A DNA stretch of 55,695 nt, taken from Planctomycetaceae bacterium (lineage in GTDB: Bacteria; Planctomycetota; Phycisphaerae; SM23-33). This document shows positions 26,951 through 47,217 of the stretch, in pieces; position 1 is the stretch's first letter, and every line of letters begins with the position of its first letter. The DNA lies in the NCBI GenBank assembly GCA_039680605.1, contig JBDKTA010000070.1, positions 1-55,695 on the forward strand, in the 5' to 3' direction. The notes under the pieces are model-generated. The model did no database searches, was not told the DNA's origin, and was given only the letters and a program-made list of their open reading frames with translations. The position numbers and the translations under genes are program-made.

Positions 26951-26968
26951 ATCTATAGGAGAACTAAC

Positions 26969-29314: not shown

Positions 29315-30049
29315 CTAAACGTCCGACCATCCAGCCGGCCCGCCTACTATCATCTGCCCGCCCCAGGTCGGCTCACCGGCCCCTTTGAACGTGCCATCAT
29401 TGCCCCCCGCCGATTCGTCGTCCAGGGCAACCCCCGCGCCGCCCTCGGTGCGGCCATTCCAACAGGCAACCGTCCAGGTGGCGGCGCTCAGTGGTTTGTG
29501 AAACGTGCCGGCGGCGTACAGGGCCGCCACGTTGATGATGCCCGGCGCTATCCCTATCGCCGCCAGTTGCCCATTCCAGCAGTACGCGTCGCTGTTGCCA
29601 CGCCCGATTTGGTTATAGACTAGATTGCCGACGGCAACACCAAGCGGAGCCGCCGTCACGTCTACTCCGTTTCTAAACACTGTCATCGTCGCCGGACCAA
29701 CCGGACAGACGGCGGCAAGGTGAGTCCAGGTCAGCGCCGCGCTGGCATTCGATTGAGCAGCACCGCCGAACGCATTGTAAATCAGGTTGCCGGCAGACAT
29801 CGCCAGTATAGGTCCGGCCGCTCCGTTTTTCCCAATCACCACGTCCCAGTTCCAGGCAGCGGTCCGTTTTGTCCAGGCCACGATGGTAAACGGCGGCGCG
29901 ATGGTGATACCGGCCAGCGAGATATAGTCATTTGCGCCGTCGAATGTCAGGTAGTAGCAGGGAAGAACAGGCGCCGCCCCGCCATACGCCCCGCTGATTT
30001 CCAGGTCAGAGCCGAACACGAGCGGCTGAGTGTGGCGCAAGATGATCAT
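29315..30049 (-). CDS. LamG/concanavalin-like adhesin
   Basis: 244 residues. The core (YLTFDGANDYISLAGITIAPPFTIVAWTKR ... WTHLAAVC ... MTVFRNGVDVTAAP ... NQIGRG ... FWNGQLAAIGI-like) is a laminin-G/concanavalin fold that binds glycans. It begins in ATGA overlap with the glycosyltransferase at 30046, tying a sugar-binding virion protein to the glycan block. Likely a decoration or receptor-binding protein. Confidence 0.75.
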   Translation of the reverse strand: MIILRHTQPLVFGSDLEISGAYGGAAPVLPCYYLTFDGANDYISLAGITIAPPFTIVAWTKRTAAWNWDVVIGKNGAAGPILAMSAGNLIYNAFGGAAQSNASAALTWTHLAAVCPVGPATMTVFRNGVDVTAAPLGVAVGNLVYNQIGRGNSDAYCWNGQLAAIGIAPGIINVAALYAAGTFHKPLSAATWTVACWNGRTEGGAGVALDDESAGGNDGTFKGAGEPTWGGQMIVGGPAGWSDV

Positions 30050-30681
30050 GCCCCATGCTCCCGGCACACAAACCACGGATGCGACCGACGCCGCCAGCCC
30101 ATGCCGCCGTTAATCGGGTTGACGCGCACCTTGTCGCCCATGAGCCAGCGCACATAATCGAAGCTCAGTTGGTCCCTGGCGCTGCCCTTGACGATCTCCG
30201 CCCACCATAGCGCCATGAACTCACGGACGGCGGGCGTGTCCCGTTTCGCCATGATGCACGTTTCGCCTAGCCCGAAATGGGCCGGGAATCCATCGGCCCT
30301 GTACCGCTCCATCTGCGCGTCTACGACCTCCGCCGCATCCTTGCCCTTCTTGACCACCCGCCGCGCCTCGCCATAGATGCAGTCGCCCGCCGGGTGTTTG
30401 AACAGCGCCAGATCGTAGCCGTCGAGCCACGCGCCAAGCACCTCCGCCACCGGAACAGCAAGCGCGATGTTACCGTCGATCCACAACGACTCCGCCGCCG
30501 GGAATGACAGCAGCTTGAACTGCCGTGCCGTGCGCCGCCGGTCTGTCTGCGGTATGGATGTCCATACCTCCCAGCCCTCGCACATCTGCCCGCCGGTGTA
30601 GGCGACGAACCGGCCCGGTACGGTCGGTGTTTGCAGTTTGTCGTAGCCGCCAAAGATAGCGGTGTAGGCTGCTTGATCCAT
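30046..30681 (-). CDS. Glycosyltransferase (DUF616/TOD1-like, GT-A)
   Basis: 211 residues: IFGGYDKLQTP at the start and RQFKLLSFPAAESLWIDGNIAL (DxN/DxD-like metal motif near residue 71) match DUF616 proteins, which resemble GT-A transferases; HFGLGETCIMAKRDT and FMALWWAEI follow as in that family. ATG 30681 is used; GTG 30687 is possible. The TACAAT box lies only 7 bases ahead, so the transcript may be nearly leaderless. Confidence 0.7.
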   Translation of the reverse strand: MDQAAYTAIFGGYDKLQTPTVPGRFVAYTGGQMCEGWEVWTSIPQTDRRRTARQFKLLSFPAAESLWIDGNIALAVPVAEVLGAWLDGYDLALFKHPAGDCIYGEARRVVKKGKDAAEVVDAQMERYRADGFPAHFGLGETCIMAKRDTPAVREFMALWWAEIVKGSARDQLSFDYVRWLMGDKVRVNPINGGMGWRRRSHPWFVCREHGA

Positions 30682-30687
30682 GCTCAC

Positions 30688-30722
30688 ATTGTACCTTGTC
30701 TAGCGGTTGCCCCTTTGCCGTT
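30688..30722 (-). promoter_or_regulatory. Late repeat-type promoter, copy 1
   Basis: Minus-strand AACGGCAAAGGGGCAACCGC (30722-30703), 9 bases, then TACAAT (30693-30688). The 20-mer is identical in three places (also 47218-47252 and 54662-54696), with the same 9-base spacing to a TATAAT-like box. No normal -35 is present. It lies between the sulfotransferase and glycosyltransferase genes. Confidence 0.7.
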
Positions 30723-30723
30723 G

Positions 30724-31407
30724 TCAGCCATTGTGATTCATGTCGCACCGGCAGAATTGGACGGCCCGGTCGATCTGCTTGTCGCTGGCAGGCATGACCG
30801 CCGTGCCGTCGCGTGCAAAAGCGTTCAGCGCCCGCACCCAGGCCATCGGCTCTTTCAGCAGCGGCCGGTAGCTGACCTCCAATGTCGGACCGTCAAATAC
30901 CGCGATCTGCCGCTCCATCGCCTCGCGCCAGGTGGACAAGATCGCCCGCGCGTGCGGTGGGTCCATGCGCAACGCGCCTCCGTAACTGACGATGCTGTGC
31001 TTGACCAGGCTGGCCACCGACGCCTCGAAATCGCGCCGGACGATGACCAGCCGGGCGTCCTTGAGGTAGGGCGTGATCCAATGCAGCGTGAAGCATAGCC
31101 GCGGGCACTTCATCCCCCACAACGGCTTGCGCTGGCATTCGTCGGCAAGCTCTTTGTAGGCCAGGCGTTGCTCACCGCCGATGTCGTTGGGCTGGCTCGT
31201 GCCGTAACGGATGCCGGTGATGCGCTTATGCAGCGCCTGCCAGCGGAGATCCTCAAAGTATCCGAGCTTGTTGTTGGCGTCCGACGGCTGAAGGTGCCCA
31301 TCGCCCATGTCGACGCCCAGGGTGTGCAGGATGCCGGCGACAAGCGACGTACCCGAGCGCGGGATGCCCAAGACGACAACGCAGCGACTAGGCAAGGAAT
31401 CCTCCAT
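30724..31407 (-). CDS. Sulfotransferase-family protein
   Basis: 227 residues with the PAPS 5'-phosphosulfate loop GIPRSGTSLVAGIL (14-27) and a later ARLVIVRRDFEASVASLVKH (about 124-143), the 3'-phosphate region of sulfotransferases. They move sulfate from PAPS to sugars or proteins. GGAGG lies 8 bases before ATG 31407. In the glycan block it would sulfate the sugar. Confidence 0.8.
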   Translation of the reverse strand: MEDSLPSRCVVVLGIPRSGTSLVAGILHTLGVDMGDGHLQPSDANNKLGYFEDLRWQALHKRITGIRYGTSQPNDIGGEQRLAYKELADECQRKPLWGMKCPRLCFTLHWITPYLKDARLVIVRRDFEASVASLVKHSIVSYGGALRMDPPHARAILSTWREAMERQIAVFDGPTLEVSYRPLLKEPMAWVRALNAFARDGTAVMPASDKQIDRAVQFCRCDMNHNG

Positions 31408-31594
31408 GCTCTTTACCTCCAACGGTCAGAATCAGCCCGGCCAATCGCCATGATACCCACGCGCTGACCAACCGCCCGTTGTACTGGCGCAACACGTGAT
31501 AGTGTGAGCGCCACACCTTCGGGAAGTTGCGACACCGCCTTAGAAACGAGGCCCGATGAAGGCCGACCGTTATGGTACAAGGCGCGCTAGGCAT
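31388..31594 (-). CDS. Hypothetical small basic protein
   Basis: 68 residues, basic, with HRASFLRRCRNFPKVWRSHYHVLRQYNGRLVSAWVSWRLAGLIL. It overlaps the aminotransferase end by 8 bases and the sulfotransferase start by 20. The C-terminal half is hydrophobic. No family recognised. Confidence 0.45.
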   Translation of the reverse strand: MPSAPCTITVGLHRASFLRRCRNFPKVWRSHYHVLRQYNGRLVSAWVSWRLAGLILTVGGKEHGGFLA

Positions 31595-32699
31595 AGAACC
31601 CCCTAATCGTCGTGGTGATCTTGTCAACCTCCTCGCCCGTCAGGTTTTGGTGTAGCGGGATGCACAGGGTGTGCTCGTTGGCCCACTCCGCCTCACTCAA
31701 GCTATTGCCGGTGTTGTAGGCCAGGTGAAGCGGCAGGTAGCGGAATGTGACGTAGATGCCATTCTCGATCATGTGGTGGGCCAATTCGTCGCGGCGGTCG
31801 GTTTGCACCCAGTACAGGTAGTAGCTTGACGTGCAGCCCGGCAGCGGCTCGGGCGGCAAGGTCAAATCACCGACGCCGTACAGCATGGCCTGGTAGGTGT
31901 CCCATATCTCGCCCCGCGCGGCGACGAACGCCGGCACCTTGCGCAGTTGCTCCCGGCCTATGGCGGCCAGGATGTCATTCGACCCGCACCGGCTTGACGG
32001 CTCGGACACGGTGAACTCCCACCACCGGCTGGCCTTGCCCACCTTGTCTGAGCCATAGTTGCTGTCTAGGCCCAGGTTGCGCAGCCGCTTGCCCCGCTCA
32101 TAGTCTGCGTCGCTCCGCAGCCACAGCGCCCCGCCATCGCCCATGACCAGGATTTTCATGCTGTCAAATGACCACGCGCCGGCTTGCCCGAACGTGCCGA
32201 CGGCTTGCCCGTGGTAGGTCGAGGCGACGGCGCAAGCGGCATCCTCCAAGAGCCACAGGCCATGCTCCCGGCATAGCTCCACGATCGGGTCCATGTCGCA
32301 CGGATGGCCGCCATAATGCAGCAGCGATACCCCCACCGTCCGCGAGGTGATGTGCTTCTCGATCTCATCGGCGGTGACGTTCAGGGTGTGGCGATCTACG
32401 TCGCAGAATACGCACTGGCCGCCCTGTTCCATGACCGCGTTTGCCGATGCCACAAAGCTGACCGACGGCATGATCACCTGTTGCCCCGGCTGTAGCCCCA
32501 GGATGCGCGGCGCGAGGTACAGCCCCGACGTGCAACAGTTCAAGAGCAGCACATTCTTGACGCCCCACGTTTCGGCAAGCTCTTTTTCCAGCCGTTCACA
32601 CTGCTTGCCGGTGCCAAGCCAGCGCGAGGCAAAGACGCGAGCGACTGCTTCCCACTCCGATTCGCCCATCGTGTTGCTGAAAATCTCGATCCTGCTCAT
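31587..32699 (-). CDS. DegT/DnrJ/EryC1-type sugar aminotransferase
   Basis: 370 residues. PLP enzyme of the sugar aminotransferase family: Lys182 in SFDSMKILVMGDGG forms the internal aldimine, and LLEDAACA (150-157) holds the PLP Asp. Enzymes of this family aminate NDP-keto-sugars at C3 or C4, as in perosamine or Fuc3N synthesis. No dehydratase or isomerase is encoded here, so the keto sugar would come from the host. ATGA overlap with the upstream gene. Length is normal. Confidence 0.9.
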   Translation of the reverse strand: MSRIEIFSNTMGESEWEAVARVFASRWLGTGKQCERLEKELAETWGVKNVLLLNCCTSGLYLAPRILGLQPGQQVIMPSVSFVASANAVMEQGGQCVFCDVDRHTLNVTADEIEKHITSRTVGVSLLHYGGHPCDMDPIVELCREHGLWLLEDAACAVASTYHGQAVGTFGQAGAWSFDSMKILVMGDGGALWLRSDADYERGKRLRNLGLDSNYGSDKVGKASRWWEFTVSEPSSRCGSNDILAAIGREQLRKVPAFVAARGEIWDTYQAMLYGVGDLTLPPEPLPGCTSSYYLYWVQTDRRDELAHHMIENGIYVTFRYLPLHLAYNTGNSLSEAEWANEHTLCIPLHQNLTGEEVDKITTTIRGFYA

Positions 32700-33313
32700 C
32701 CTTTCCCCCATTTCTGCTTGAACCGTGCCCGGTCCTTGTCGTACCACTCGCCCCACGTCTGGCCCATGGCGTGGTTAATCCACACATCCTGGACATACAC
32801 CGACCGCCAGCCCTTTTCACGCATCCTCATTTCCAGATCGGTATCGTCGCAGTAGTGCTGATAGCCTTCGTCCATGAATCCAACGGCCCGGAACACGTCC
32901 GTCTTGACCGCTGCCACGACCCAGGCCGCCGGGTGTTGCAGCTCGATCACGGCTTGCGGCAGCCCCGGCTTGCCCTTGCCCTGCGGCGTGCTATGGCACG
33001 GCGCGCCCGTCACAGCAACCCCGATTTCCGGCCTGCTGTCAAGCACGTCCACCAGCCGCTTGCACCAGCCGTCCGGGAACTGCGAGCAGTCGTCGTTGAC
33101 GAACACGGCGACGCGAGCGCCCCAATCCATCGCGGCGCGCCATAGCACATTCGACACAACCAGGCCGCCGCGCCGGGCATAGTCTGAAATCAGCAGCGCG
33201 CCCACGTCCAGCCCGGCGGTGTCTTTCGCTTCAGCCAACGTCTGCGCGCCGCGCAATATGTCAAGCGTTGGGCAGACAAGCACGATCTCGGACGTGCGCG
33301 GTTCTATCCCCAT
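32696..33313 (-). CDS. Family 2-like glycosyltransferase
   Basis: 205 residues: EIVLVCPTLDI at the start, VAVFVNDDCSQFPDGW (metal-binding D-D, about 71-86), PAAWVVAAVKTDVFRAVGFMDEGYQHYCDDTDLEMRMREKGW (about 127-170). The last segment is the typical GT2 acceptor/ED motif. It is shorter than usual (about 250-300). Starts 9 bases inside the methyltransferase gene. Confidence 0.85.
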   Translation of the reverse strand: MGIEPRTSEIVLVCPTLDILRGAQTLAEAKDTAGLDVGALLISDYARRGGLVVSNVLWRAAMDWGARVAVFVNDDCSQFPDGWCKRLVDVLDSRPEIGVAVTGAPCHSTPQGKGKPGLPQAVIELQHPAAWVVAAVKTDVFRAVGFMDEGYQHYCDDTDLEMRMREKGWRSVYVQDVWINHAMGQTWGEWYDKDRARFKQKWGKG

Positions 33314-33918
33314 GTCACCACCACCAACCGCGACTTGTCGCCTTCGCCCGGTCCCGGGTCTTGCACGTAGTTGGTCACGGCAAGCTCTTGGAATTGCCAC
33401 GGTGTCACGGTCAGCACCGAGCGCAGGCTGTAGTTTGCCAGCCACGCCGTTACCCTGTCTGGCAGGCTCTCTTCGCCATTATGCAGCCCGGCGTCTTTCC
33501 AGCCCCGGTAGGTGTTGAGCATCATGGTCACGGCGAGGCAATCGGGCGGCGGGCTGTCAACCAGCGCCTGCAATGCCACGCGGTACAATTCGACGCCGGT
33601 TGCTTTCGCCTCTGCTTGGCCGGGAATGTCCAGGCTCAGATCGACGCCATAGCAGGGCACGTCCAGCGCATCCTTGAGCGCCTTGAGCACCAGCGCGTCA
33701 CCGCAGCAAATGTCCAGTACGTTGACCGGCTTGACCTCTCGCAGCGCCTTGATGATCCGCGCCGGCCTTGACGCCGGGTTGCTGACATCGCGGTCGCCGG
33801 CCCCCACCCGCTCGCGGATGCGGCCCTGGATATTCAGCAGCGGCGTGCTGGGCCATAGCAGCAGATCGGCGTCTAGTTCTGCCGTCTTGCGCTCCAAGTC
33901 CTCAAGCCAGTGTTTCAT
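33304..33918 (-). CDS. SAM-dependent methyltransferase
   Basis: 204 residues with the class I motif VNVLDICCGDALVLKAL (about 65-81) and CYGVDLSLDI (motif II). Later motifs (CLAVTMMLNTYRGW) fit a small-molecule methyltransferase. ATGA overlap with the asparagine-synthetase-like gene. Substrate presumed a sugar, from the context. Confidence 0.7.
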   Translation of the reverse strand: MKHWLEDLERKTAELDADLLLWPSTPLLNIQGRIRERVGAGDRDVSNPASRPARIIKALREVKPVNVLDICCGDALVLKALKDALDVPCYGVDLSLDIPGQAEAKATGVELYRVALQALVDSPPPDCLAVTMMLNTYRGWKDAGLHNGEESLPDRVTAWLANYSLRSVLTVTPWQFQELAVTNYVQDPGPGEGDKSRLVVVTWG

Positions 33919-35084
33919 TTGAGCGTGTACCCATCCTTTCGCAAGGCTTCGCAGTAACAGGCCGCCGTCCAGTGTGACCACCACTCCGACCGCTCAAGGT
34001 GCCCCGCGCCGCTTGACCACATGGCCTTCGTCGCCGGCACAGCTTCGGGCGCGCAGTTCTGGCCGTACCATGATTCGTGGTACTGGCACAGCATCCGGGT
34101 CACGATCTCGGGCGGGAACAGCGGCCATTCGTCGGCAAGCCGCGGGAACGCCGCCAGCATCGGATCAAGCCAGGCGCACATCCGCTGCCGCAGGTCAAAC
34201 GCCTCCCTGACCGACGATTCGACCGCGACGCGCAGCACGTCGTAACTCAGCCAGGGCAACACCTCACCGGGCAGGCTTGGCGGGATGCTGGTTGCCACGC
34301 CATAATGCTTGACGGCCCACCTGTGCAGCCGGTTCTTGCCCGCGCCCATAAGCCAGTAGTCAGATCCAAACCCGCTCACCGCTTGCAGATCGGGCAGGCT
34401 CATTTCCGCGCCGCTGCCAATGAGCGACGATGAGCCATAGCCGCTGATGGACTGCCAGCGGTCGCGGTTCTTGGGCAGACATAGCGCCTTTTGGAAAGCG
34501 TGTAGCAGCCAGAAGCGCGATACTGGAATGGTCGGGTGCGCGCCGTTCAGGTATTGGCCGCAGCCGATGTCCAGAATGGGCCAGAGCCACAGCGCCGGGT
34601 CTTTGACGGTCACGATCTGCTCTTCGGCCCAGCCCTCGAATAGCATAATCTGACGGGCGATCTGCGCTTCCGGCCCAAACGAAAAGCAGACGACCGGATC
34701 GGTATAATGCTGGCGGTCTATCACCCGCTTGAGCGCCATGCCCATGATGCGACTGTCCCAGCCGGACGAATGCAGCAGAACATGCACCTTGCCGGGCAGC
34801 CACGACTCTTCCAGGTGGTAGCAAATGGCGTCAAACAGGCGGCCAAAGAACTGTGCTTCTGTCTCTTGCCGGGTCGCCGGCGGCAGGGCAAACAGCGCCA
34901 ATTCATCGGTGTTGGCCCGGTATGGCGCGATGCCCACGTCGATAAAGACGGTGTTTGGCCCTTCGCTGTAAACCGGCTGGACAAAGTTCTTGCGCACCCT
35001 CGCGGTCTTGGGCAGCACGTCGCGGATTAGGTGCGATTGCTTGCCGCCACACTCAAAGACACGGCCCCGGTTGAATTGTCTCAT
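33915..35084 (-). CDS. Asparagine-synthetase-like PP-loop protein
   Basis: 389 residues. VHVLLHSSGWDSRIMGMAL (about 101-119) resembles the PP-loop SGGxDS of asparagine synthetase and related amidotransferases; the second Gly is replaced by Trp. VCFSFGPEAQIARQI and ISGYGSSSLIG fit the later nucleotide and substrate regions of that fold. No N-terminal glutaminase Cys is present. In glycan clusters such proteins amidate uronic acids. ATGA overlap places ATG at 35084. Confidence 0.65.
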   Translation of the reverse strand: MRQFNRGRVFECGGKQSHLIRDVLPKTARVRKNFVQPVYSEGPNTVFIDVGIAPYRANTDELALFALPPATRQETEAQFFGRLFDAICYHLEESWLPGKVHVLLHSSGWDSRIMGMALKRVIDRQHYTDPVVCFSFGPEAQIARQIMLFEGWAEEQIVTVKDPALWLWPILDIGCGQYLNGAHPTIPVSRFWLLHAFQKALCLPKNRDRWQSISGYGSSSLIGSGAEMSLPDLQAVSGFGSDYWLMGAGKNRLHRWAVKHYGVATSIPPSLPGEVLPWLSYDVLRVAVESSVREAFDLRQRMCAWLDPMLAAFPRLADEWPLFPPEIVTRMLCQYHESWYGQNCAPEAVPATKAMWSSGAGHLERSEWWSHWTAACYCEALRKDGYTLK

Positions 35085-36070
35085 GTGTACGCCCATTGCT
35101 CACCAACCTTCCTTCTCAGGTGCGGAAAACAATCGCACAGTATCCCACGCAATTCCCACGACCGCCGCTCCCAGGTGTGGCAGGCGAGGGTGTAGGCTTT
35201 GGCATTGGCCGCTATCGGCTCCCAAAAGCCATGCCCGATCAAGTCGTCAAGCGCGATCTCTACGCCCTCCATCTCTTTGTCGCTGAAAGGCCCTCGCGGC
35301 TTGCCGTCCAAGACATAACTGTCTGCCGGCTTGTCGAATGTCAGGTAATGGACGCCGGGCATCCAACACTCGCCGATAACCGGCGGCATGGGGTTAGACA
35401 GGAACGCCGCGCCCGCCGCCGCACAGTCGAATATCCGCGCCGGTCGCGTGTTGGCCGTGCGGTTCAGGTGAACGACAACCTTTGTCCTTGCCAACAGGCT
35501 GGCGTATTCCTGATTCACGCTTTGCCCGCCGGTGTGCCAGTACACCCAGCCGCGCTTTTTGCAGTAGCCCTCAAGCCACGCGCTGAAAGCGGGCCGGGCC
35601 GGTGAGTGCTGCCACACACAGTAGAACCCCACGTCAATGTCACGTCTCAGCCCCCGATCCCGGTAGTACCGCTCGTTGACGGCGTAGGGGAGCTGCCTTA
35701 CCTGGAAATCGGAGCTGTACCAGTTCTCAGGCTTGTCATGGTCTAACAGCACGAGATCGGCCAGCCGTTCAGCAATGCGCCGCTTCGTTTCGTGGATCGA
35801 CTCGCCCAACGTAGGCCACAGCACGCGGTAGACGACCGGGCTGATCCGGTTGCCCTTGTGCGGCTCGATTGACGGTGCGGAATATTTGCCGTCGTCAAGC
35901 CAGATCGCGTCTACGTCTTTCCAGGCTTTCACGTCCAGGCAAAAGTCACGCTCTACGTCGTGATGCTCCCAGGTCAGGCCCGGCACGTCGTAGGCGAAAT
36001 GACCGTCGATGCGCGGCGCCTGGTTGTACCAATGGCCCCGGTGCAGTAGGGCGAGGTGTAGGGGGATCAT
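35081..36070 (-). CDS. GT-B-type glycosyltransferase (CgeB-like)
   Basis: 329 residues. The C-terminal half (YASLLARTKVVVHLNRTANTRPARIFDCAAAGAAFLSNPMP ... GVHYLTFDKPADS) is the NDP-sugar domain of family-1/CgeB-like transferases. The N-terminal half has WEHHDVERDFCLD and VDAIWLDDGKY. Starts 1 base before the stop of the membrane peptide at 36072. Transfers a sugar to an unknown acceptor. Confidence 0.75.
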   Translation of the reverse strand: MIPLHLALLHRGHWYNQAPRIDGHFAYDVPGLTWEHHDVERDFCLDVKAWKDVDAIWLDDGKYSAPSIEPHKGNRISPVVYRVLWPTLGESIHETKRRIAERLADLVLLDHDKPENWYSSDFQVRQLPYAVNERYYRDRGLRRDIDVGFYCVWQHSPARPAFSAWLEGYCKKRGWVYWHTGGQSVNQEYASLLARTKVVVHLNRTANTRPARIFDCAAAGAAFLSNPMPPVIGECWMPGVHYLTFDKPADSYVLDGKPRGPFSDKEMEGVEIALDDLIGHGFWEPIAANAKAYTLACHTWERRSWELRGILCDCFPHLRRKVGEQWAYT

Positions 36071-36071
36071 A

Positions 36072-36209
36072 CTAAAACGCCCACCACGGCAACCCAGCCC
36101 GATACAGCAACCAACGGGCGCCAATGCCGACCGCGATGCCAAGCGCGATGATAAGCAGGCATATGACAAAGACGACCGGTTTACTCTGTCTCTCTATCCA
36201 GTTAAACAT
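36072..36209 (-). CDS. Small single-span membrane protein
   Basis: 45 residues: NWIERQSK then a hydrophobic helix (VVFVICLLIIALGIAVGIGA, about 12-31) and RWLLYRAGLPWWAF. It overlaps the upstream gene by 16 bases and the next start by none. It could anchor glycan enzymes to the membrane. Confidence 0.6.
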   Translation of the reverse strand: MFNWIERQSKPVVFVICLLIIALGIAVGIGARWLLYRAGLPWWAF

Positions 36210-36979
36210 CCCACCATCTCCAATTCTGCCAGCACTTGCCGGCTCACAAATCCGCTCGTGTCCAGGTCAAACGGCAGCGGGCGGTCACTCCGGTGCTTGC
36301 GGCTGTACTTGTCGGTGAAGTACTTTTTCCAGTCAGACCAGACGAACTCTGCCCGCCGCTTGGGCACGAGGTCATGGTAGCAGCGGATAAAATTCATGCG
36401 CCTGGCGTAATCTGACAGCGGCAATTCCAGCGGCAAGTCGATCACGGCTACACTGTCCATCTCGGGCCAATGCCCGGCGATCCACGGCGTCGGCTTGCCG
36501 TCGTAGGTGATGCCGTCCAGGCCGAATTGTACGTCAGAATCAGCCCGCAGGATGTAGGGCCACATCTTGTCGGCGTGAAACACCACGCCGCTTAGACTAT
36601 CGCAGCGGTGGACATAGCCCAGGCCGTCGACCGGCTGGCGCAGGTAGGCCGCCGCGTCGGGCGTGACGTAGCAGTTGCAGAACATAAAGACGATTTGATC
36701 CGCGCCGCCATGCCGGGCCTCGTGCCAGCCGACATCGGTACTCGTGGCGACCATCTGTGGTACGTAGTAGGATTGGCCGCCAATCTCCGGAAACCACGTC
36801 CGGCGGTCGCTGATAAGGTGCGCATTGTCGGGCAGCCAATCGAACCACCCAGCGTCCTTGCGCGTGGTCAGCGGCAGGTACACGGCGTCAAACTCAGCAC
36901 AGATGCGCTCAAGGCACAGGCGCAGGGTGGCGCGGTAGCCGTCCACGAAACCGACCGGCACAACGGCGGCGGTTATCAT
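36194..36979 (-). CDS. Putative glycosyltransferase-like protein
   Basis: 261 residues. The start (TAAVVPVGFVDGYRATLRLCLERICAEFD) and DQIVFMFCNCYVTPDAAAYL recall GT-A folds, and RADSDVQFGLDG supplies acidic residues, but no clear DxD is present. Surrounded by glycan genes. Could also be a hydrolase. Starts at ATGA overlap. Confidence 0.5.
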   Translation of the reverse strand: MITAAVVPVGFVDGYRATLRLCLERICAEFDAVYLPLTTRKDAGWFDWLPDNAHLISDRRTWFPEIGGQSYYVPQMVATSTDVGWHEARHGGADQIVFMFCNCYVTPDAAAYLRQPVDGLGYVHRCDSLSGVVFHADKMWPYILRADSDVQFGLDGITYDGKPTPWIAGHWPEMDSVAVIDLPLELPLSDYARRMNFIRCYHDLVPKRRAEFVWSDWKKYFTDKYSRKHRSDRPLPFDLDTSGFVSRQVLAELEMVGCLTG

Positions 36980-37191
36980 CCTTGGGCCTCTTTACTGAGC
37001 ACCCTCATTTCTTCAATGACGGCCTCTAGATCGTCGATGGTAAATTCACCGTCCAGAACGGCAATTCCTCCTGGCTGAAATCCGAAATAATCTATATTCG
37101 GCCTTTTGGCCTGGAGGCGCTGAATAGCCGCCGCCTCGATTCTGTCCCAGTCTTTAGTCTCTTGCGAGCGCAGATCAAGGACCTCCATCAT
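36976..37191 (-). CDS. Small protein between acyltransferase and glycosyltransferase genes
   Basis: 71 residues, helical and acidic (DWDRIEAAAIQRLQAKRP ... TIDDLEAVIEEMRVLSKEAQG). ATGA overlaps at both ends show it is translated with its neighbours. No function recognised. Confidence 0.55.
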   Translation of the reverse strand: MMEVLDLRSQETKDWDRIEAAAIQRLQAKRPNIDYFGFQPGGIAVLDGEFTIDDLEAVIEEMRVLSKEAQG

Positions 37192-37751
37192 TTGATTCCC
37201 TTCCTTTCGTTCTCTTCCTGCCACGCCAGAAACTCACGCTCTAGCACCTCGATCTCTTTGCGCGGCCTGTCCCGGTGTGGCCTGGCCGGCGTGCCATAAC
37301 ACAGCGTCCAGGGCGGCAGGTCTTTGGTCACGAGCGACATAGCGCCCACTGCTACCCCGTCGCCGATGGTCACGCCGGGCAAGACAACCGTGCCCGCGCC
37401 GATCACTGTTTGGCGTCCGATGCGCACAAACGAGCGGATCGGCCTGCGAAACGGCGGCATGATGGCCGGGCCTAGCAGCGTGACGCCGGTGTAATCATCC
37501 GAGCCGGTCAGGATCTGCGCGCCCATCGCTATCCCTGAGAATGGGCCGATCTCGCACACCCCGCCGCCCATAATCAGCGCCTGGACGGCAATGTGAACGT
37601 AATCGCCCAGTGTCACACCCTGCCCGCCGTGGATGAACGTAAAGTCGTCGATGATGCAGTGGTCGCCGATGCTCACCATCTCCGGGTAGACGATGCGCGC
37701 CAGCGGGTAGATGATCGTGTTTTCGCCGTGGTGTCTCAGACCTGGAACCAT
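37188..37751 (-). CDS. Hexapeptide (left-handed beta-helix) acyltransferase
   Basis: 187 residues. Repeated hexads (IIDDFTFIHGGQGVTLGDYVHIAVQALIMGG, then VRIGRQTVIGAGTVVLPGVTIGDGVAVGAMSLV) and the end TLCYGTPARP are the WbbJ/NeuD-type O- or N-acetyltransferase pattern. Such enzymes commonly pair with DegT aminotransferases to acylate amino sugars, as in Fuc3NAc pathways. The aminotransferase is at 31587 in the same block. Confidence 0.9.
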   Translation of the reverse strand: MVPGLRHHGENTIIYPLARIVYPEMVSIGDHCIIDDFTFIHGGQGVTLGDYVHIAVQALIMGGGVCEIGPFSGIAMGAQILTGSDDYTGVTLLGPAIMPPFRRPIRSFVRIGRQTVIGAGTVVLPGVTIGDGVAVGAMSLVTKDLPPWTLCYGTPARPHRDRPRKEIEVLEREFLAWQEENERKGIK

Positions 37752-38317
37752 ATCGCCGTCCCGTCCATTTCGTTGATCTTGACGTTCAATTCGTCAACCG
37801 CGGCCCTGCAGCCGGGCCAGTGGTGGTAGTCGTCTACGATGACCAGGCCGCCCTTCGACATAACGGGCAAGAACCGCTCTAGACATGCCCTGGTGGGCGC
37901 ATACCAATCTACGTCGATATGCAGCAGTGCGACCTTGACTACCACGACATTTGCCAGCGTTGTTAGCACGTCGCCGCCGATGATCCGCACCCTGTCAGGC
38001 GATACCTCTAGCTTGTCAAGAACGGCGGTCACGTCTTGCAATGATGCCCGGCACCAGTCGGGCGTCCACTTGGACGCGGCCCTTTCACCGTCGATCTTGT
38101 CCGGCTTGGGCATCCCGATAAAGCGGTCGAATAGCCACAGATCGCGCATTGTTGCCCACGACAGCAGCGCCCCCGAGCCGCCGCGATAGACGCCACACTG
38201 GACGATACAGCCGGGCGGCAGGCGACGGCGGCACAAGGCCAGCATCATCTTGAGCCGGTCAGGCGGGATGCACGAGTAGAGCGCGGCGGTGATAATGGCA
38301 TCGTCGTCTTGGATCAT
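37736..38317 (-). CDS. TylF/MycF-type O-methyltransferase
   Basis: 193 residues: IVQCGVYRGGSGALL (SAM motif, about 38-52), DLWLFDRFIGMPKP, and LLHIDVDWYAPTRACLERF and LVIVDDYHHWPGC, the metal-site Asp residues of TylF macrocin O-methyltransferases. These methylate sugar hydroxyls. ATGA overlap with the next methyltransferase gene. Confidence 0.85.
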   Translation of the reverse strand: MIQDDDAIITAALYSCIPPDRLKMMLALCRRRLPPGCIVQCGVYRGGSGALLSWATMRDLWLFDRFIGMPKPDKIDGERAASKWTPDWCRASLQDVTAVLDKLEVSPDRVRIIGGDVLTTLANVVVVKVALLHIDVDWYAPTRACLERFLPVMSKGGLVIVDDYHHWPGCRAAVDELNVKINEMDGTAIWFQV

Positions 38318-39006
38318 GGCACACCCGGAATCCAGTTGCGGCAGGCTTCGTCGTACTTCCACGAGTAGCGCGCTTCGTCCAGGGCCGGTAGCGTTTCGCC
38401 CTGCTTGCGATACCAGCCGACGAACCCCTGGCCGGCGTCGGTGATGACCTTCACGTCAAAGTCACGGAACGCATCTTTCACCGCCGTTAAGGTCTCGTAC
38501 ACCGGCTGGCAGCCCCTCGTTGCCCGCTTGGGGCTGTAGTCGTGAAACACCATCAGCCCGCCGGCTTTGAGCCATTGCCACCAGGGCAAGTCCCAAACCA
38601 CCATGCCGTGATAGCCGTCGACGAACACGAGATCCAACAGCGGCCCGCTGTAGATTGACAGATAATCCCAGGAGCGCAGCTTGAGCGGCCTCACGTTGGG
38701 CCAATATCTGAGCGCCTGTTCGGCATACGAGAAGTGTTTGGCGCTTGGCGTCAGCGTCGTGATGTTCGCTTTGGGCGCGGCCTCCGCCATGACCGCCGCG
38801 CTGTAGCCGTAACAGGTGCCCAGCTCCAAAATGTGCGACTCGTAGCCGTCGCACTTGGCGGCAAGCACGAACAGCGCCGCCGCCTCGTGCCGGTCGATCT
38901 GGTTCTTGGTCGGCTCGATAGTAGAGCCCACAGCGTCCAGGGCGCGCTTGACCTTGCCATCTTGCAGTGTGGCCAGGATTTCGGCGGGCGTGCCGGTCAG
39001 GTTCAT
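38314..39006 (-). CDS. Class I SAM methyltransferase
   Basis: 230 residues with ILELGTCYGYSAAVMAEA (about 59-76), LLDLVFVDGYHGMVVWDLPWWQWLKAGGLMVFHDYSP (motifs IV-V). This is the catechol-type or class-24 methyltransferase fold. Third methyltransferase in the block. ATGA overlap with the structural-like gene at 39003. Confidence 0.82.
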   Translation of the reverse strand: MNLTGTPAEILATLQDGKVKRALDAVGSTIEPTKNQIDRHEAAALFVLAAKCDGYESHILELGTCYGYSAAVMAEAAPKANITTLTPSAKHFSYAEQALRYWPNVRPLKLRSWDYLSIYSGPLLDLVFVDGYHGMVVWDLPWWQWLKAGGLMVFHDYSPKRATRGCQPVYETLTAVKDAFRDFDVKVITDAGQGFVGWYRKQGETLPALDEARYSWKYDEACRNWIPGVP

Positions 39007-39542
39007 GCGTTGCTGACCGTCCTGACTTTTACCTGGATAGCCACAACCACGTTGTCAAGCGGATCGATGTTCTTGTTGTCGAATACGACGAACCGCTGTT
39101 GCCGCCGTCCCGTCGTCTCGGTGGGCAGCGGCGTAGTCAGGCAGTTGGTGTCGCGGAACGCGGTCAGATCGGCCAGGCCCGGCGCAAAGGTGTAGTAGCG
39201 GGTCAGGCTGGCCGCTTGCGTCGTGCCGGCTGTAGCCAGGACGCCAAGCAAAACGCCGTCATCCCGATAAGCCGCGATCTGAATCTGCCGGGTGCCAACC
39301 GTCGCCGTGGTGGTCACGGTCACACCGGCCCACAGCACTTGCCCCTCGTAATCATCGGGCACGATGTAGGTTTTGCGGTTCTTGACGCCTACATCGGTTG
39401 CAGCGGCAAGGTAGATTTCTTGCACCCGCCAGACCTCATTGGTCGCCACAACCTCGCCGTGGCACTCGTGGCCCACCTCCTGGTACATGGTCCGCATCCC
39501 GTCGGGGATGATTTCGTCTCGCTCTCGGTAGTAATCTGCCAT
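39003..39542 (-). CDS. Putative virion surface protein in the glycan block
   Basis: 179 residues, beta-rich: YIVPDDYEGQVLWAGVTVTTTATVGTRQIQIAAYRDDGVLLG. The wording is like phage decoration or fibre domains rather than enzymes. It may be the acceptor or part of the capsid that is glycosylated. RBS AGGAGGTTGAC precedes the ATG. The HNH4 unit is inserted directly upstream. Confidence 0.5.
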   Translation of the reverse strand: MADYYRERDEIIPDGMRTMYQEVGHECHGEVVATNEVWRVQEIYLAAATDVGVKNRKTYIVPDDYEGQVLWAGVTVTTTATVGTRQIQIAAYRDDGVLLGVLATAGTTQAASLTRYYTFAPGLADLTAFRDTNCLTTPLPTETTGRRQQRFVVFDNKNIDPLDNVVVAIQVKVRTVSNA

Positions 39543-39587
39543 TCTGTCAACCTCCTATTTCTTGCGCTGTCATAGGACAGCAGATAT

Positions 39588-39616
39588 TTGACAACGCGCC
39601 AATCCTATGATAGCAT
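39588..39616 (+). promoter_or_regulatory. Own promoter of HNH gene 4
   Basis: TTGACA (39588-39593), 17-base spacer, TAGCAT (39611-39616). The GATATTTGACAACG core (39583-39596) is identical to that of HNH1. It lies on the strand opposite to the late operon. Confidence 0.8.
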
Positions 39617-39648
39617 GTAACCCTACCAACAACTGGAGGCGCGTAACG

Positions 39649-40203
39649 ATGGAAGATGTTAGGGTATGCAAAAATCCAGATTGCCAATCTGGCGGAAAGC
39701 CGCAGCCGTTGTCTGCATTTCGCAAGAGCGGTAACAAGTATCGTGGGAAGTGTAAGGCGTGCGAGACAGAATATCAGCGCCAATACCGCACAACGGATGC
39801 GGGAAAGAAGGTATATACCGGCTGGAACAATAGCGATAAGGGCAAGGCGTCTATTCGCCGCTTCGACAAGAGCGAAAAGCGCCGCGATTCCCGCTTGCGC
39901 TATCGTACCGAATACCCAGATCGTTGGAAAGAGCAGTATCATCGTAACAATACCAGCGAACGGGCAAGAAAATACAGCAAGGAACGTCAAGCTAAAAAGG
40001 AATATCAGATCATAGTGGCCGCATCTGCCATAGTTGATGCAGCTATCCTGCGGGGCGAAATACCGACGCCAAAAAACTTGGCGTGCCTTGATTGTGGCAA
40101 GCGGGCGCGAGAATATCATCATCATAATGGCTACGATGATGCCCACGTGCTTGACGTTATTCCGCTCTGCCGTTCGTGCCATGCCCGCCGTCATGTTCGA
40201 TAG
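39649..40203 (+). CDS. HNH homing endonuclease 4
   Basis: 184 residues: an N-terminal Cys cluster (CKNPDC, CKACETEYQR), a basic middle, and a C-terminal HNH core (CLDCGKRAREYHHHNGYDDAHVLDVIPLCRSCHARRH). GGAGG (39635-39639) precedes ATG 39649. It is on the plus strand inside the minus-strand operon and overlaps the end of the glycosyltransferase at 40191 by 13 bases. The leader is short, unlike HNH1 and HNH2. Confidence 0.85.
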   Translation: MEDVRVCKNPDCQSGGKPQPLSAFRKSGNKYRGKCKACETEYQRQYRTTDAGKKVYTGWNNSDKGKASIRRFDKSEKRRDSRLRYRTEYPDRWKEQYHRNNTSERARKYSKERQAKKEYQIIVAASAIVDAAILRGEIPTPKNLACLDCGKRAREYHHHNGYDDAHVLDVIPLCRSCHARRHVR

Positions 40204-41840
40204 CCGTGCTCTTTTTCCCATTGTTCTACCACCGCCCATGCTGCCCTACTGTCTGAGCGGTCTATTACCTTACCTCTCCATCGCCTACTGGTCATGGGAA
40301 AATGTTTGAGCACCGCCGTTTTCTCTGCGTCGGGAATGCCCTCCATGCCGGCATACCTGACGATCAGGTTGTAAGGCCAATTCCCCAAGACGTACAGCTT
40401 GACCGGGTTGGCATACAGCGCCCGCAGCAGCGCCCCTTGATCGCGCTTGCCCCAGGCTTTCCATTCCTCGTGCCAGGCGTGAAAGAAGGCCGCCGTCCTG
40501 GCGTTGCGCTGGAAGGTAAAGACGCCCCCATTCAGTTGGATCAGCTCGCCACAGCCGATGGTGTTGAAGGTATGGTCGCACTCATCGGCGTTGTCTGACC
40601 GGCGCATCTCCCACGCGACGTGGTATTTGGCCGGGTTTTTGCAGATGACCATATCCCAACCGTCCATCAGGGCTTGCCACAGGAACGACGGGTCTTGCTG
40701 TAGCTCGGTGTCGCTGTCCATGTAGCCGATGTATTCCCACTCTGCCGGCGCCAGGTCATAGATCAGCGTCTTGGCGTGCCTGCCGCCAATGTCAACGTCC
40801 GGGCATTGGATGAACACATCCTCGCCCGCGTCAAGCGGCTCTGTGCCGATGACCGCGACCTCGATCCCCTTGGCGTGCTGCTTGAACGATGCAATCGCCG
40901 CTTTTGCGCACTCCCTGGACGGACCGCCATAGGCGACATAGACGACGCCGCGCCGGCCATGGCGGTCGCTCTCGATATGCTGTTCAAGGCTCATTTGGGC
41001 CAGGGCGATCTGGTGGTCGTTGGCCCACGAGTCGGCGGTATAGCCTTCGACGGCATGGCGCAGCGCCCCCCGGTCGCTGTCCGTTTTCAGCGCCTCTTTC
41101 AGCGCCCGGCACATGTCGCCGTAATCGCCGGCCTCGTAGCGGTGGACGCCGGGCATGTCGGGCAGGTCGTCAAGCATCCCGACGCCCTTGGGGATGACAA
41201 CGGGCACGCCGCAGGCCAGCGCCTCAAGCGGCGGCATGGGCACGCCTTCGACGGTGCTGGTACACAGAAACACGTCCAGGCTGTTGTACCAGGCCGGCAG
41301 CGCCTCCCATTCCAGCGTCTCGGTATCGACCGGCCAGCCCTTGCCGATGGCCTTGACGGCCCACTTGCCGGACCTGTCGCCGGCCAATTTCGCCACGAGC
41401 TTTTCGCCCTTGCGCCCGCCGGGGTGGACGTAGCCGGCAACGCCGATCACTGGCTTGTCGTTCTTGGCGCGCTCCGTAATCACGAACTGCGGGTCAATCG
41501 GCGGCTTGGGGCACAACGCGACCGGGCCATACTCTGACAACTCGGCCAGGTACTGGCGGGCAGCGGTGATGCGCATGTCCACATTATTGCAGGCCAGCTC
41601 CCACCAAAAGTGCTTCCACGGGACGTGCGTCTCGTGGTGAGTGAACCAGGCCGCGACCGGGGTCACGTGCCAATCGCTGAACTTTTCGGCAAATTCGACG
41701 TAGCAGATAAAGTAGGTGATGTCGGCTTGCCCATTCGGCGTGCGGGTGTATGTCCAGCCGGTCGTATCGGCCAGGATGCGCGCCAGCCGGTCAAGGACCG
41801 TGCCCTTGCCGATGCCAGAGTAGACGATGTTGGCGTTCAA
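40191..41840 (-). CDS. Two-domain glycosyltransferase (GT-B plus GT-A)
   Basis: 549 residues. The first 310 form a GT4-like GT-B domain (PVIGVAGYVHPGGRKGEKL, LDVFLCTSTVEGVPMPPLEALACGVPVV). The remainder is a GT-A domain with YIGYMDSDTELQQD (DSD metal motif), QLNGGVFTFQRN and RDQGALLRALYANPVKL. TTG 41840 is chosen because of GGAG seven bases ahead and the 4-base overlap with the upstream stop. Fused transferases of this kind add two sugars in sequence. Confidence 0.82.
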   Translation of the reverse strand: MNANIVYSGIGKGTVLDRLARILADTTGWTYTRTPNGQADITYFICYVEFAEKFSDWHVTPVAAWFTHHETHVPWKHFWWELACNNVDMRITAARQYLAELSEYGPVALCPKPPIDPQFVITERAKNDKPVIGVAGYVHPGGRKGEKLVAKLAGDRSGKWAVKAIGKGWPVDTETLEWEALPAWYNSLDVFLCTSTVEGVPMPPLEALACGVPVVIPKGVGMLDDLPDMPGVHRYEAGDYGDMCRALKEALKTDSDRGALRHAVEGYTADSWANDHQIALAQMSLEQHIESDRHGRRGVVYVAYGGPSRECAKAAIASFKQHAKGIEVAVIGTEPLDAGEDVFIQCPDVDIGGRHAKTLIYDLAPAEWEYIGYMDSDTELQQDPSFLWQALMDGWDMVICKNPAKYHVAWEMRRSDNADECDHTFNTIGCGELIQLNGGVFTFQRNARTAAFFHAWHEEWKAWGKRDQGALLRALYANPVKLYVLGNWPYNLIVRYAGMEGIPDAEKTAVLKHFPMTSRRWRGKVIDRSDSRAAWAVVEQWEKEHGYRT

Positions 41841-42154
41841 GATGTCGCTCCAATCGCTCGCTGATTGCGTCGGGCCTTCGCCTCTGCAAATCGCGCCTGA
41901 TAATCCTTGACCATCATGGAAATCGCATCTTCTATGCTCGCGCCAGTCCATGACCCGTCAGTCGATACCCCCATCCGCCCCATCTCTCGAAACTCTCCGA
42001 CGGTGAAAGCCCTTAATGGCGCATAATCCCGCGCCTCTGGGTGTCGCTCAAGAATCTTAAGCAGCTTTTCACGGGCAAGCTCACCCTCTGGTTTTCCGGC
42101 TTGGTCCTCCGCCAGCCTTGCGAGTGCCAGCGCCTTTCTCTTCCAGGCGTTCAT
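41837..42154 (-). CDS. Hypothetical helical protein
   Basis: 105 residues, helical (KRKALALARLAEDQAGKPEGELAREKLLKIL), ending with AEAKARRNQR. Start by ATGA overlap with the next gene. No family recognised. Confidence 0.5.
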   Translation of the reverse strand: MNAWKRKALALARLAEDQAGKPEGELAREKLLKILERHPEARDYAPLRAFTVGEFREMGRMGVSTDGSWTGASIEDAISMMVKDYQARFAEAKARRNQRAIGATS

Positions 42155-42339
42155 TTCTCCCCTTTCGTATCCTGCAACTTCTTGCATTGTTCACAAGTAA
42201 CGTTGTCTGGATCAGTGGTTGCCTGCAATGCGTATTTGCCACAGAGACAAAGAGGGTCAAATATGCCGTTAACATAATGAACCGGCCAGTCGGCATCAAA
42301 CTTGAACGCCTTGGTAGTGGTAAGGGTTATTGTCGCCAT
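42151..42339 (-). CDS. Zinc-binding mini-protein
   Basis: 62 residues with CLCG (near 33) and CEQC (near 50), one predicted zinc site. GGGGAGA precedes ATG 42339. Its end overlaps the next start. Function unknown. Confidence 0.5.
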   Translation of the reverse strand: MATITLTTTKAFKFDADWPVHYVNGIFDPLCLCGKYALQATTDPDNVTCEQCKKLQDTKGEK

Positions 42340-42349
42340 CTCTCCCCTT

Positions 42350-42979
42350 TCATGCTTTCGCCGCGCCGAATCGGTGTGTCACCAACTCGCCGCCATTGTA
42401 CGCCCGCCCGAGCAGCCACGTTCTCACCGGCTCGCGGCCCAGCGCCCGAATCAGCGCGCCTTGATCCATCGTGCCGAACCGCGCCCACTCTTCACGCCAT
42501 GCCTGAAAGAATGCGCGGGTCTGGTCTGTTTTGCGTGCGAAAAAGACGCCGCCCTGTAGCTGCAACGGCCTGGGGTTGTCCATCAGGGTCAGCTCGCGGT
42601 CAGCGTCTGAGACGTGCCACAGCAGGCGGGTTTCCTGGTTGTCGCTTGGGGTGATGACCAAATCCCAGCCATCGGCCAGGATGTCGAATCCGGCCATGAG
42701 CGGGCCGTTGACGCGGGTGTCGGCGTCGAGGTACAGAAAGCGATCCCACGGCGATAACTGGTCAACGTGCAGCTTTGCCCGCCGCGCTCCCCAGCCCTCG
42801 TCGCCGCCAAAGCGCATGATGTGATCCGCGCCTTTCATGGCCCGGGCGTCGGTGATGCACAGGACCGGCAGCCGCTTGTTGTGCCGCTTCAGGCTGGCTA
42901 TGCTTGCGGCGGCTTCGGCCTGGGCTGCCGTGCCATAGGCGATGTACACTACGCCGTGATCCACCGTATCAATCGCCAC
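42350..42979 (-). CDS. GT-A glycosyltransferase
   Basis: 209 residues: VVYIAYGTAAQAEAAASIASLKRHNKRLPVLCI, then WDRFLYLDADTRVNGPL (DxD, DAD) and LQLQGGVFFARKTDQTRAFFQAWREEW with MDQGALIRALGREPV. This matches the C-terminal domain of the enzyme at 40191. GTG 42979 is chosen; it overlaps the upstream stop. The ribosome site is weak, so the start is uncertain. Confidence 0.72.
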   Translation of the reverse strand: MAIDTVDHGVVYIAYGTAAQAEAAASIASLKRHNKRLPVLCITDARAMKGADHIMRFGGDEGWGARRAKLHVDQLSPWDRFLYLDADTRVNGPLMAGFDILADGWDLVITPSDNQETRLLWHVSDADRELTLMDNPRPLQLQGGVFFARKTDQTRAFFQAWREEWARFGTMDQGALIRALGREPVRTWLLGRAYNGGELVTHRFGAAKA

Positions 42980-43283
42980 CAGTCCTGTACTGCGCCCGGA
43001 ATGTGGGCGTGATGATCGGAGGCTCTGAATAGGGCACGATCTCGGGCCAGTCAGGGTGCTCAAATATCAGGGCGATGACTTGCCTGATATAGTCATAATA
43101 GGCAGTAATGAACCGTGTACCCTCTGGCAATCCGTTGACGCATTCCATGGCCCTATCTTTGCCAACATGCCATCCGGTTGTCAACATGCCTTGTAGCAGT
43201 TCTGGCGATACAAGTACTATCTTTCGCCGTGTAGGTTGCGATATGTCTAGTCGCCACGGGAGCATTTTCCACGTCTTGTCCAT
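42969..43283 (-). CDS. Hypothetical protein
   Basis: 104 residues (RRKIVLVSPELLQGMLTTGWHVGKDRAMECVNGLPEGTRFITAYYD). Soluble, mixed fold, no motif recognised. GAAAGGGCC precedes the ATG. Overlaps the transferase start by 11 bases. Confidence 0.5.
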   Translation of the reverse strand: MDKTWKMLPWRLDISQPTRRKIVLVSPELLQGMLTTGWHVGKDRAMECVNGLPEGTRFITAYYDYIRQVIALIFEHPDWPEIVPYSEPPIITPTFRAQYRTGGD

Positions 43284-43294
43284 GATGGCCCTTT

Positions 43295-43630
43295 CTATGC
43301 CGTGATCTGAGTCGGGCACGGTATCCACCCATTGCGGAACAGGACATCTACCAGGGCCAAGGCCAATAGATCCAATTCGTCTTCATGTTCACTGCCGGTC
43401 AGCGCCTTCAGTTTTAGTGCGCTGGCAATACCGTGCAAAACCTCGTGCATGATGGTATGCCACAGATCTTCATTTCCGCGCCCGTTGTCATAAATACGGA
43501 TAGTGCGTGTCCAGAAATCGATTTGGCCCCACAGTGATTCGCGCCTGAAGAGGTCTACATCGGAGGGCTTGTCTACATATTCAACTCCATAAACAAGGCC
43601 CAAGATGTTGATAGCTTGTGGTTTTTCCAT
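43295..43630 (-). CDS. Putative HExxH zinc metallopeptidase
   Basis: 111 residues with WHTIMHEVLHGIASAL (HEVLH, about 57-61), a gluzincin-type active site, and EDELDLLALALVDVLFRNGWIP after it. The pattern fits short SprT/ImmA-like phage peptidases. Target unknown; could process a virion or host protein. AAAGG precedes ATG 43630. Confidence 0.65.
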   Translation of the reverse strand: MEKPQAINILGLVYGVEYVDKPSDVDLFRRESLWGQIDFWTRTIRIYDNGRGNEDLWHTIMHEVLHGIASALKLKALTGSEHEDELDLLALALVDVLFRNGWIPCPTQITA

Positions 43631-43641
43631 CGCTTTCCTTT

Positions 43642-44283
43642 CTACGCTGTGGTCGGCGCCCATTGGCCTGTCCAGGTCACCGGCAGGGCCAGCGTCAGCG
43701 GCTTGACCCGGTACAACGCCCGCAGGAATGATAGCCGGTCCATCTTGCCGTTCGACTCGCCGTCCCAAATCTCAAGCAGCGTCCTTGTCTCAGGGCACCT
43801 GCGCATGAATACCAGCCGGGTGTCGTACATTGGCACGCGCAGGTCACGGATGATCGACTTGGTGCGCTCGCGCTCTTCGTCGGTGCCCTCGTTCATGGCC
43901 AGCTCACGGTAATCCCACAACGGCGCGGCGACCTGCCATTTGTTCAAGAATGAGAAGCCGGCCCCTAGCAGGTGGCGAGGGGTGGCGGCGCGGGTATCCC
44001 AGAAGCAGGTTTTCTCCCAGCGCAGCTCATACTTGCCGGGGTTGGCCCATTCGACCTTGACCTCTTCGTAGCTGGCCGATCCCCAAAAGACCATAACGCC
44101 CGCCGTGCCCGCCGGCTCTTCGGCTTGCATCGCTTGGGGGTAGGGCACGACGGCAGAGCCTTCGGCGATCCATGCTTGGGCGGTTTGCTTGCCGACCTGG
44201 ACCCAATCGCCGGGCCAGCGGTCAATCGACTGGCCGCCGGCGCTGATCCTTTTCGGCTTGGTGAGTTGTAACCAGACTGGCAC
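43642..44283 (-). CDS. Hypothetical protein with a glycosyltransferase-like C-terminus
   Basis: 213 residues. The end (TRLVFMRRCPETRTLLEIW ... KMDRLSFLRALYRVKPLTLAL) lines up with the ends of the GT-A domains at 40191 and 42350. The DxD motif is missing, so it is probably inactive or a scaffold. GTG 44283 fits AAAGGAG five bases ahead. ATG 44298 is an alternative. Confidence 0.6.
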   Translation of the reverse strand: MPVWLQLTKPKRISAGGQSIDRWPGDWVQVGKQTAQAWIAEGSAVVPYPQAMQAEEPAGTAGVMVFWGSASYEEVKVEWANPGKYELRWEKTCFWDTRAATPRHLLGAGFSFLNKWQVAAPLWDYRELAMNEGTDEERERTKSIIRDLRVPMYDTRLVFMRRCPETRTLLEIWDGESNGKMDRLSFLRALYRVKPLTLALPVTWTGQWAPTTA

Positions 44284-44300
44284 GGTTGCTCCTTTCATGT

Positions 44301-46105: not shown

Positions 46106-46107
46106 AG

Positions 46108-47204: not shown

Positions 47205-47217
47205 ATACGTCTAGTGT

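Follow-up and report, generated by a model that had tools for sequence, protein, structure and literature searches.

A variable glycan-synthesis slot beside the capsid genes of a phage with a probable Phycisphaerae host: a probable virion glycosylation locus

The phage contig and its late operon

The window analysed here is one whole contig (G000:C70) of 55,695 bases, and the subject of this report is a block of glycan-making genes that lies between the capsid and tail genes of the phage it represents. Bases 1..127 are an exact repeat of bases 55569-55695 (end overlap 127 nt), and because the two ends are identical we read the contig as a complete circular phage map of ~55.57 kb. The + strand carries the early genes (topoisomerase-like, RecT-like, DnaD-like, FtsK-like and HNH) and the - strand the late genes, in the order terminase, portal-MuF, neck, protease, major capsid protein (MCP), decoration protein, glycan block, head-tail adaptor and tail genes. 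The early genes were scanned in part, and no integrase showed up in those covered. All genes discussed below are on the - strand unless marked (+).

The host of this phage is probably a Phycisphaerae (Planctomycetota) bacterium, mainly on the basis of binning. Bin G016, of the same family as the bin of the window, holds a contig that matches LJUF01000001.1 (Phycisphaerae bacterium SM23_33) without a difference in the 4 kb compared; this contig is a related phage carrying the same slot.

The original prediction, made by a model from the sequence alone, described a 14-kb block of glycan genes between the capsid and tail genes. That position is borne out, with terminase, portal-MuF, head maturation protease (46108..47121) and HK97-type MCP (44807..46111), the last two assigned with PHROGs, on the upstream side, and a head-tail adaptor (26295..26951, phrog_442) at the far end. 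The block is real; its extent was underestimated, since the slot as defined by relatives runs from about 44298 down to 26951, ~17 kb in the window. The enzyme set, of 13-17 kb, has five or six genes for glycosyltransferases (GTs) and three for methyltransferases; it also encodes a C4-type sugar aminotransferase, an acyltransferase, a sulfotransferase and a PP-loop-like protein. The enzymes expected of a pathway for an aminated, acylated, methylated and sulfated sugar (DegT aminotransferase, hexapeptide transferase, three methyltransferases and sulfotransferase) are all encoded, placed with the virion genes.

Conserved core genes

Decoration protein. The gene that follows the MCP in all relatives covering the position (44363..44797, phrog_28483) encodes a jellyroll decoration or cement-like protein. 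Its AlphaFold2 (AF2) model is a confident jellyroll (predicted local distance difference test score, pLDDT, 86) and matches the BPP-1 cement protein 3j4u_H with Z 9.3 and a root-mean-square deviation (rmsd) of 3.0 over 109 aligned residues, a score that other jellyrolls tie. In one relative (L022, 2630-3581 (+)) the decoration protein gene is duplicated in tandem downstream of the MCP.

Core gene 1. The next gene (43642..44298), identified by profile, model and alignment, encodes an N-terminal beta module and a GT-A-like domain. It matches the second core gene in a profile-to-profile comparison (E 7.7e-16 over 123 columns), and its confidently predicted structure (pLDDT 85.8) matches GT-A structures at Z ~8, for example the capsid GT 2p72 of PBCV-1 (Z 8.0, rmsd 3.1, 128 aligned); such Z values are borderline, and the search of solved structures was used only jointly with the profile match. 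The DxD metal site is present at the aligned position in none of 19 relatives. Since DxD is absent though fold and profile match GT-A, the protein is best read as a GT-A-fold pseudoenzyme with an N-terminal beta module, kept directly beside the decoration protein. No free-standing relative of the N-terminal module was found in outgroups.

Core gene 2. A GT8 or glycogenin-like GT-A enzyme (42350..42979; Nucleotid_trans, above the curated Pfam cut-off) keeps the DxD metal site as an invariant DADT in all 16 aligned relatives.

Core gene 3. A GT4 domain above the Pfam cut-off is fused to a second GT8-like domain (40191..41840), a C-terminal Nucleotid_trans match just below its cut-off with the motif MDSDT. 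In some relatives a shorter GT4 takes the place of this fusion.

A search of 50,697 phage records gave no relative for any of the three core GT genes, so a glycan system with these core genes is unsampled by isolates. A DNA-level search of phage records with the window gave no match either.

The same slot in relatives

Relatives were fetched by MCP alone (plus bin G016), so that these loci were not chosen by their glycan genes. The gene order sought in relatives was recovered: at 46-71% MCP identity, all 14 of the loci that extend past the MCP carry relatives of 44363-44797 and then of 43642-44298, and the 10 that reach further all have a relative of 42350. The 14 are not independent events, since three pairs among them (L015/L016, L017/L018 and L019/L020) have sequence in common. 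The usual order is decoration protein, GT-A pseudoenzyme, glycogenin-like GT and, in most cases, the GT4+GT8 fusion, followed by variable enzymes. Loci fetched by core gene retain this core order; in them the slot ends at the head-tail adaptor wherever both ends are visible, and relatives of the adaptor occur in L028, L034, L037, L046 and L073. Scans of viral contigs seeded with single DegT or GT4-fusion sequences missed existing relatives, while the MCP and profile A1 seeds worked.

Slot length varies from ~4.5 kb (L028) through 7 kb (L037), 8.7 kb (L034), 13 kb (G100) and 16 kb (L046) to 17 kb in the window, and content varies with it. L028 has only a CgeB-like GT and a methyltransferase; L031 encodes one methyltransferase and one sulfotransferase; in L034 a TOD1-methyltransferase fusion is joined by several methyltransferases, a sulfotransferase and a GNT-I-like protein; and L046 combines methyltransferases with GT47-like proteins and has a relative of the PP-loop protein. 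The richness that had been thought unusual is so when set against the four genes of cluster O mycobacteriophages, but among the phage's own relatives rich slots are the rule. In a distant outgroup (L047, MCP ~30%) the genes after the decoration-protein relative are two small ones and then a gp6-like connector and an HK97-gp10-like gene, with no glycan genes. The slot of L046, the SM23_33 phage contig, also holds at 5822-8102 (-) a phosphonate-binding ABC protein, an ABC permease and a radical SAM/SPASM protein, an unusual cargo for a virion operon.

Promoter-like element and timing

The window has three exact copies of a 20-mer, AACGGCAAAGGGGCAACCGC, each with a TATAAT-like box after it and always on the late strand: at 54658..54696 upstream of the first late genes, at 47214..47252 upstream of the protease, MCP and block, and at 30684..30722 inside the block just before the TOD1 GT gene. 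In 100 shuffles none reached three copies, and the chance expectation is 0.02 even allowing three mismatches. The exact 15-nt core of the element is absent in relatives. From this element, common to the MCP, we propose that the block would be expressed late with the capsid genes. The start codon of the TOD1 GT gene lies about six bases past the TACAAT box of the copy at 30684-30722, an arrangement that would fit a leaderless transcript.

Amino sugar and other enzymes of the block

Aminotransferase. The DegT-family pyridoxal phosphate (PLP) aminotransferase (31587..32699) scores 271 bits over 355 residues in Pfam (2e-80), with a full-length fold and the PLP lysine motif FDSMK. Among solved structures TlmJ (5uid) is by far the nearest (E 1.3e-104; next best 2.7e-44), and the matches that follow are C4-aminotransferases. 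C4 types also rank first in NCBIfam, below the equivalog cut-offs (best 222 against 375 bits, PRK11706). Of the DegT enzymes on the chromosome of bin G016, the two that score best have only 27-28% identity to the phage enzyme.

Acyltransferase. The nearest solved structures to the hexapeptide acyltransferase (37188..37751, Pfam Hexapep) are 3vbi-3vbp, which we take to be AntD, the N-acyltransferase of anthrose synthesis.

Precursor supply. A 4,6-dehydratase is not encoded in the window; the host bin encodes a PglF-like protein with a strong score (392 bits) and also adenosine 5'-phosphosulfate (APS) kinases, for 3'-phosphoadenosine 5'-phosphosulfate (PAPS). In the slot of G100 a DegT relative (53%), a TOD1 GT (39%) and the adaptor stand in the order of the window, together with a PglD-PglF fusion. 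With the DegT relative and this fusion in the same slot, the G100 phage carries dehydratase, aminotransferase and acyltransferase, and the fusion would supply the 4-keto precursor, completing the amino-sugar branch. The TlmJ-like DegT, the acyltransferase, the PglD-PglF fusion of G100 and the PglF-like protein of the host lead us to favour, on balance, an N-acyl-4-amino-4,6-dideoxy sugar as the predicted product.

Glycosyltransferases. The count of at least five GTs stands. Besides core genes 2 and 3, the CgeB-like GT-B (35081..36070, Glyco_trans_1_2) and the TOD1/MUCI70-type GT (30046..30681, TOD1_MUCI70 1.6e-20) are above the Pfam cut-offs, the GT2-like enzyme (32696..33313) is below its cut-off with conserved relatives, and the pseudoenzyme stands at the start of the block. 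A possible further GT (36194..36979) has a 33% relative in the G100 slot and no library match.

Capping enzymes. The TylF-type O-methyltransferase (37736..38317, TylF 3e-26), the sulfotransferase and the LamG protein were, like the DegT and hexapeptide enzymes, named correctly at first sight, all with Pfam matches above curated cut-offs, against which Pfam matches were judged throughout. Two further methyltransferases had been claimed and are found: one (38314..39006, Methyltransf_24) is above the cut-off, and the other (33304..33918), methyltransferase-like, is below it with conserved relatives. The PAPS sulfotransferase (30724..31407) scores 48.7 bits with Sulfotransfer_3 (1.5e-12) against a cut-off of 27 bits and has the 5'-phosphosulfate-binding (5'PSB) P-loop-like motif GIPRSGTS. 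An early gene at 6254-6979 (+) belongs to a PAPS-reductase-like PP-loop family common in phages; a link to the sulfotransferase is not evident.

Interpretation

We consider it quite likely that the block is a late-expressed locus by which the virion, specifically the capsid, glycosylates itself. This reading is built on gene identities, gene order, the retention or loss of active sites and the promoter-like element common to the MCP. Genes and gene order support it well, while the chemistry is predicted; the acceptor, the sugar structure, the order of steps and the purpose (altered particle recognition or adsorption) we infer from sequence.

The scheme would run as follows. The host would provide nucleotide sugars, including a 4-keto-6-deoxy sugar made by its PglF-like dehydratase, and PAPS. 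The phage DegT would aminate C4 and the hexapeptide transferase acylate the amine, giving a nucleotide-activated N-acyl-4-amino-4,6-dideoxy sugar. The DADT-bearing GT8-like enzyme would attach the first sugar to a protein of the capsid surface. The jellyroll decoration protein and the MCP next to it are together the best candidate acceptor, and the neighbouring pseudoenzyme, a beta module joined to a dead GT domain, may act as adaptor or partner. The GT4+GT8 fusion and the CgeB-like, GT2-like and TOD1 enzymes would extend the chain, to be capped by the methyltransferases and the sulfotransferase.

Several points count against this scheme. The glycan itself is a prediction, and the acceptor residue and sugar identity are not readable from sequence. 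The jellyroll is a common fold, in which other members score equally against the decoration protein model, and 42350-42979 matches glycogenin only weakly at profile level (E 1.4e-4). In the host bin no protein reaches the cut-off of a curated RmlB or Gmd profile, and the sugar precursor is uncertain for that reason. The phage-host link rests on binning and on one related phage contig in a same-family bin; a search of 35 family genomes for a CRISPR (clustered regularly interspaced short palindromic repeats) spacer match to the phage gave only the contig itself, diverged phage-like matches or short matches.

Three other explanations were weighed. The block might remodel the host envelope (capsule, lipopolysaccharide or S-layer), blocking superinfection or changing serotype, instead of acting on the virion. 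DegT, hexapeptide and GT genes are found in envelope glycan loci too, and the LamG protein could bind glycans. However, membrane GTs, flippases, polymerases and lipid-carrier transferases are all missing from the block, and in many phages it keeps a fixed position, with capsid decoration genes on one side and head-tail connector genes on the other. Expression with the capsid genes would come late for envelope shaping, and the partial scan of early genes, with no integrase seen, also speaks against it. In no block protein does hydropathy reach a peak of the kind seen in membrane helices (19-residue maximum 1.85); because all of them look soluble, cytoplasmic glycosylation of virion proteins suits the block better, and we regard envelope remodelling as unlikely.

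We give still less credence to a role in modifying tail or receptor-binding proteins, or in making a polysaccharide that is free or only loosely attached, in place of a capsid coat. Mycobacteriophage virion glycans are reported on the tail tube besides the capsid, and the LamG and 27993 proteins are at the tail-side end of the slot, but the conserved core adjoins the MCP and decoration protein, away from the tail genes. Modification of phage DNA (hypermodified bases) against restriction is very improbable: such a role is frequent among phage GTs, according to PMC12619734, but no base-modifying partner gene was recognised, the position is on the late strand and capsid-adjacent, and the amino-sugar, acyl, sulfate and methyl enzymes belong to the same set.

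Returning to capsid glycosylation, we advance more tentatively a broader reading, which seems to us possible rather than probable. In this phage lineage, known from bins of Phycisphaerae and from many metagenomes, the capsid-surface glycan locus may be organized like a bacterial O-antigen locus. A fixed slot, bounded by the decoration protein and the head-tail adaptor, would hold a conserved priming core (jellyroll acceptor, pseudoenzyme adaptor, GT8-like initiator and often a GT4 extender), beside which swappable sugar-making and capping enzymes, including a full N-acyl-4-amino sugar synthesis, would give each phage its own capsid 'serotype'.

Comparison with known systems

Chloroviruses (PBCV-1) and giant viruses encode GTs, sugar synthesis and methylation for their own capsid glycan. 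They differ in being eukaryotic viruses with no gene order in common with the window, and the resemblance of the pseudoenzyme model to the PBCV-1 capsid GT is at fold level only. The DegT and acyltransferase tie the window to pathways for N-acyl-4-amino-4,6-dideoxy sugars (bacillosamine PglF/E/D, anthrose Ant and tallysomycin Tlm), from which it differs in that its genes are phage-borne, lack the dehydratase and score below NCBIfam equivalog cut-offs.

Among phages, virion glycosylation is reported for Corndog, Che8 and Myrna in PMC12363180 (citing Freeman et al. 2023) and PMC12619734, and O-methyltransferase and GT genes of cluster O have been proposed to modify the capsid (PMC4351075). The trait of such systems, phage-encoded GTs linked to virion genes, is present in the window. 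Cluster O mycobacteriophages (Corndog, Firecracker and Dylan), like the window, have GTs and a TylF-like O-methyltransferase within the head operon; they differ in having four genes, located between portal and protease and so upstream of the protease, whereas the block is downstream of the MCP, and in having no annotated aminotransferase, acyltransferase or sulfotransferase, all three of which the block has. In tblastn at E 0.01 the GTs of the window have no match in Firecracker; only the TylF O-methyltransferase matches, distantly (24%, gp33). Cellulophaga phi12:1 has a TOD1-family GT (29.6% to 30046-30681) beside a Methyltransf_24 gene between head morphogenesis and protease genes, but these are two genes only, in another slot and with no core GTs. 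By analogy, the locus is of a kind with known virion-glycosylation loci; what sets it apart is its slot, its size, its core genes and its sugar synthesis.

In the literature we reached, virion glycosylation has been shown for a few mycobacteriophages with small gene sets. This lineage presents the trait as a conserved locus of variable content, tied in position to a decoration protein and bringing its own enzymes for amino-sugar synthesis and sulfation. The locus points to an acceptor, an initiator and an adaptor that can be tested, and it suggests that the capsid surfaces of environmental phages diversify chemically as bacterial surfaces do.

Remaining genes of the slot

Several proteins within the slot have looser assignments. 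Small proteins near the core genes are found at 43295..43630 (HExxH-like motif IMHEVLH, between core GT genes, no NCBIfam match), 42969..43283 (no function assigned) and 41837..42154 (no function assigned; a 49.5% relative at L039:4372-4830 is there upstream of the capsid genes); another with no function assigned is at 36976..37191. The protein at 39003..39542, with a strong ribosome-binding site, is possibly a virion protein, and no relation to the decoration protein was found. Toward the tail genes lie the LamG/ConA-like lectin-fold protein (29315..30049, Laminin_G_3 4e-9) and a protein with no function assigned (27993..29027) that, by sequence comparison, has a relative between GT genes of L026.

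Three details of the original prediction did not survive. The protein at 33915..35084 had been called asparagine-synthetase-like, an identification we rejected on finding no match in Pfam, NCBIfam, PHROGs or PDB sequences; it has only a PP-loop-like motif (SSGWDSR), of which SSGWDS is common to one distant relative, and is possibly an amide-forming enzyme. Four-base overlaps, said to join almost all the genes, occur at 9 of 20 junctions. The supposed membrane peptide (39547-40239) is the antisense of an HNH-like endonuclease gene (39649..40203 (+); weak DUF6349 in Pfam), an insertion in the operon that is outside the pathway and has its own ribosome-binding and promoter-like sites. Together with 26894-27916 (+) it forms a pair of antisense insertions of endonuclease-like genes into the late operon. 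A 37-nt promoter-like stretch upstream of the gene at 39649 recurs in the start region of the + strand HNH gene at 4643-5095 (repeat D4).

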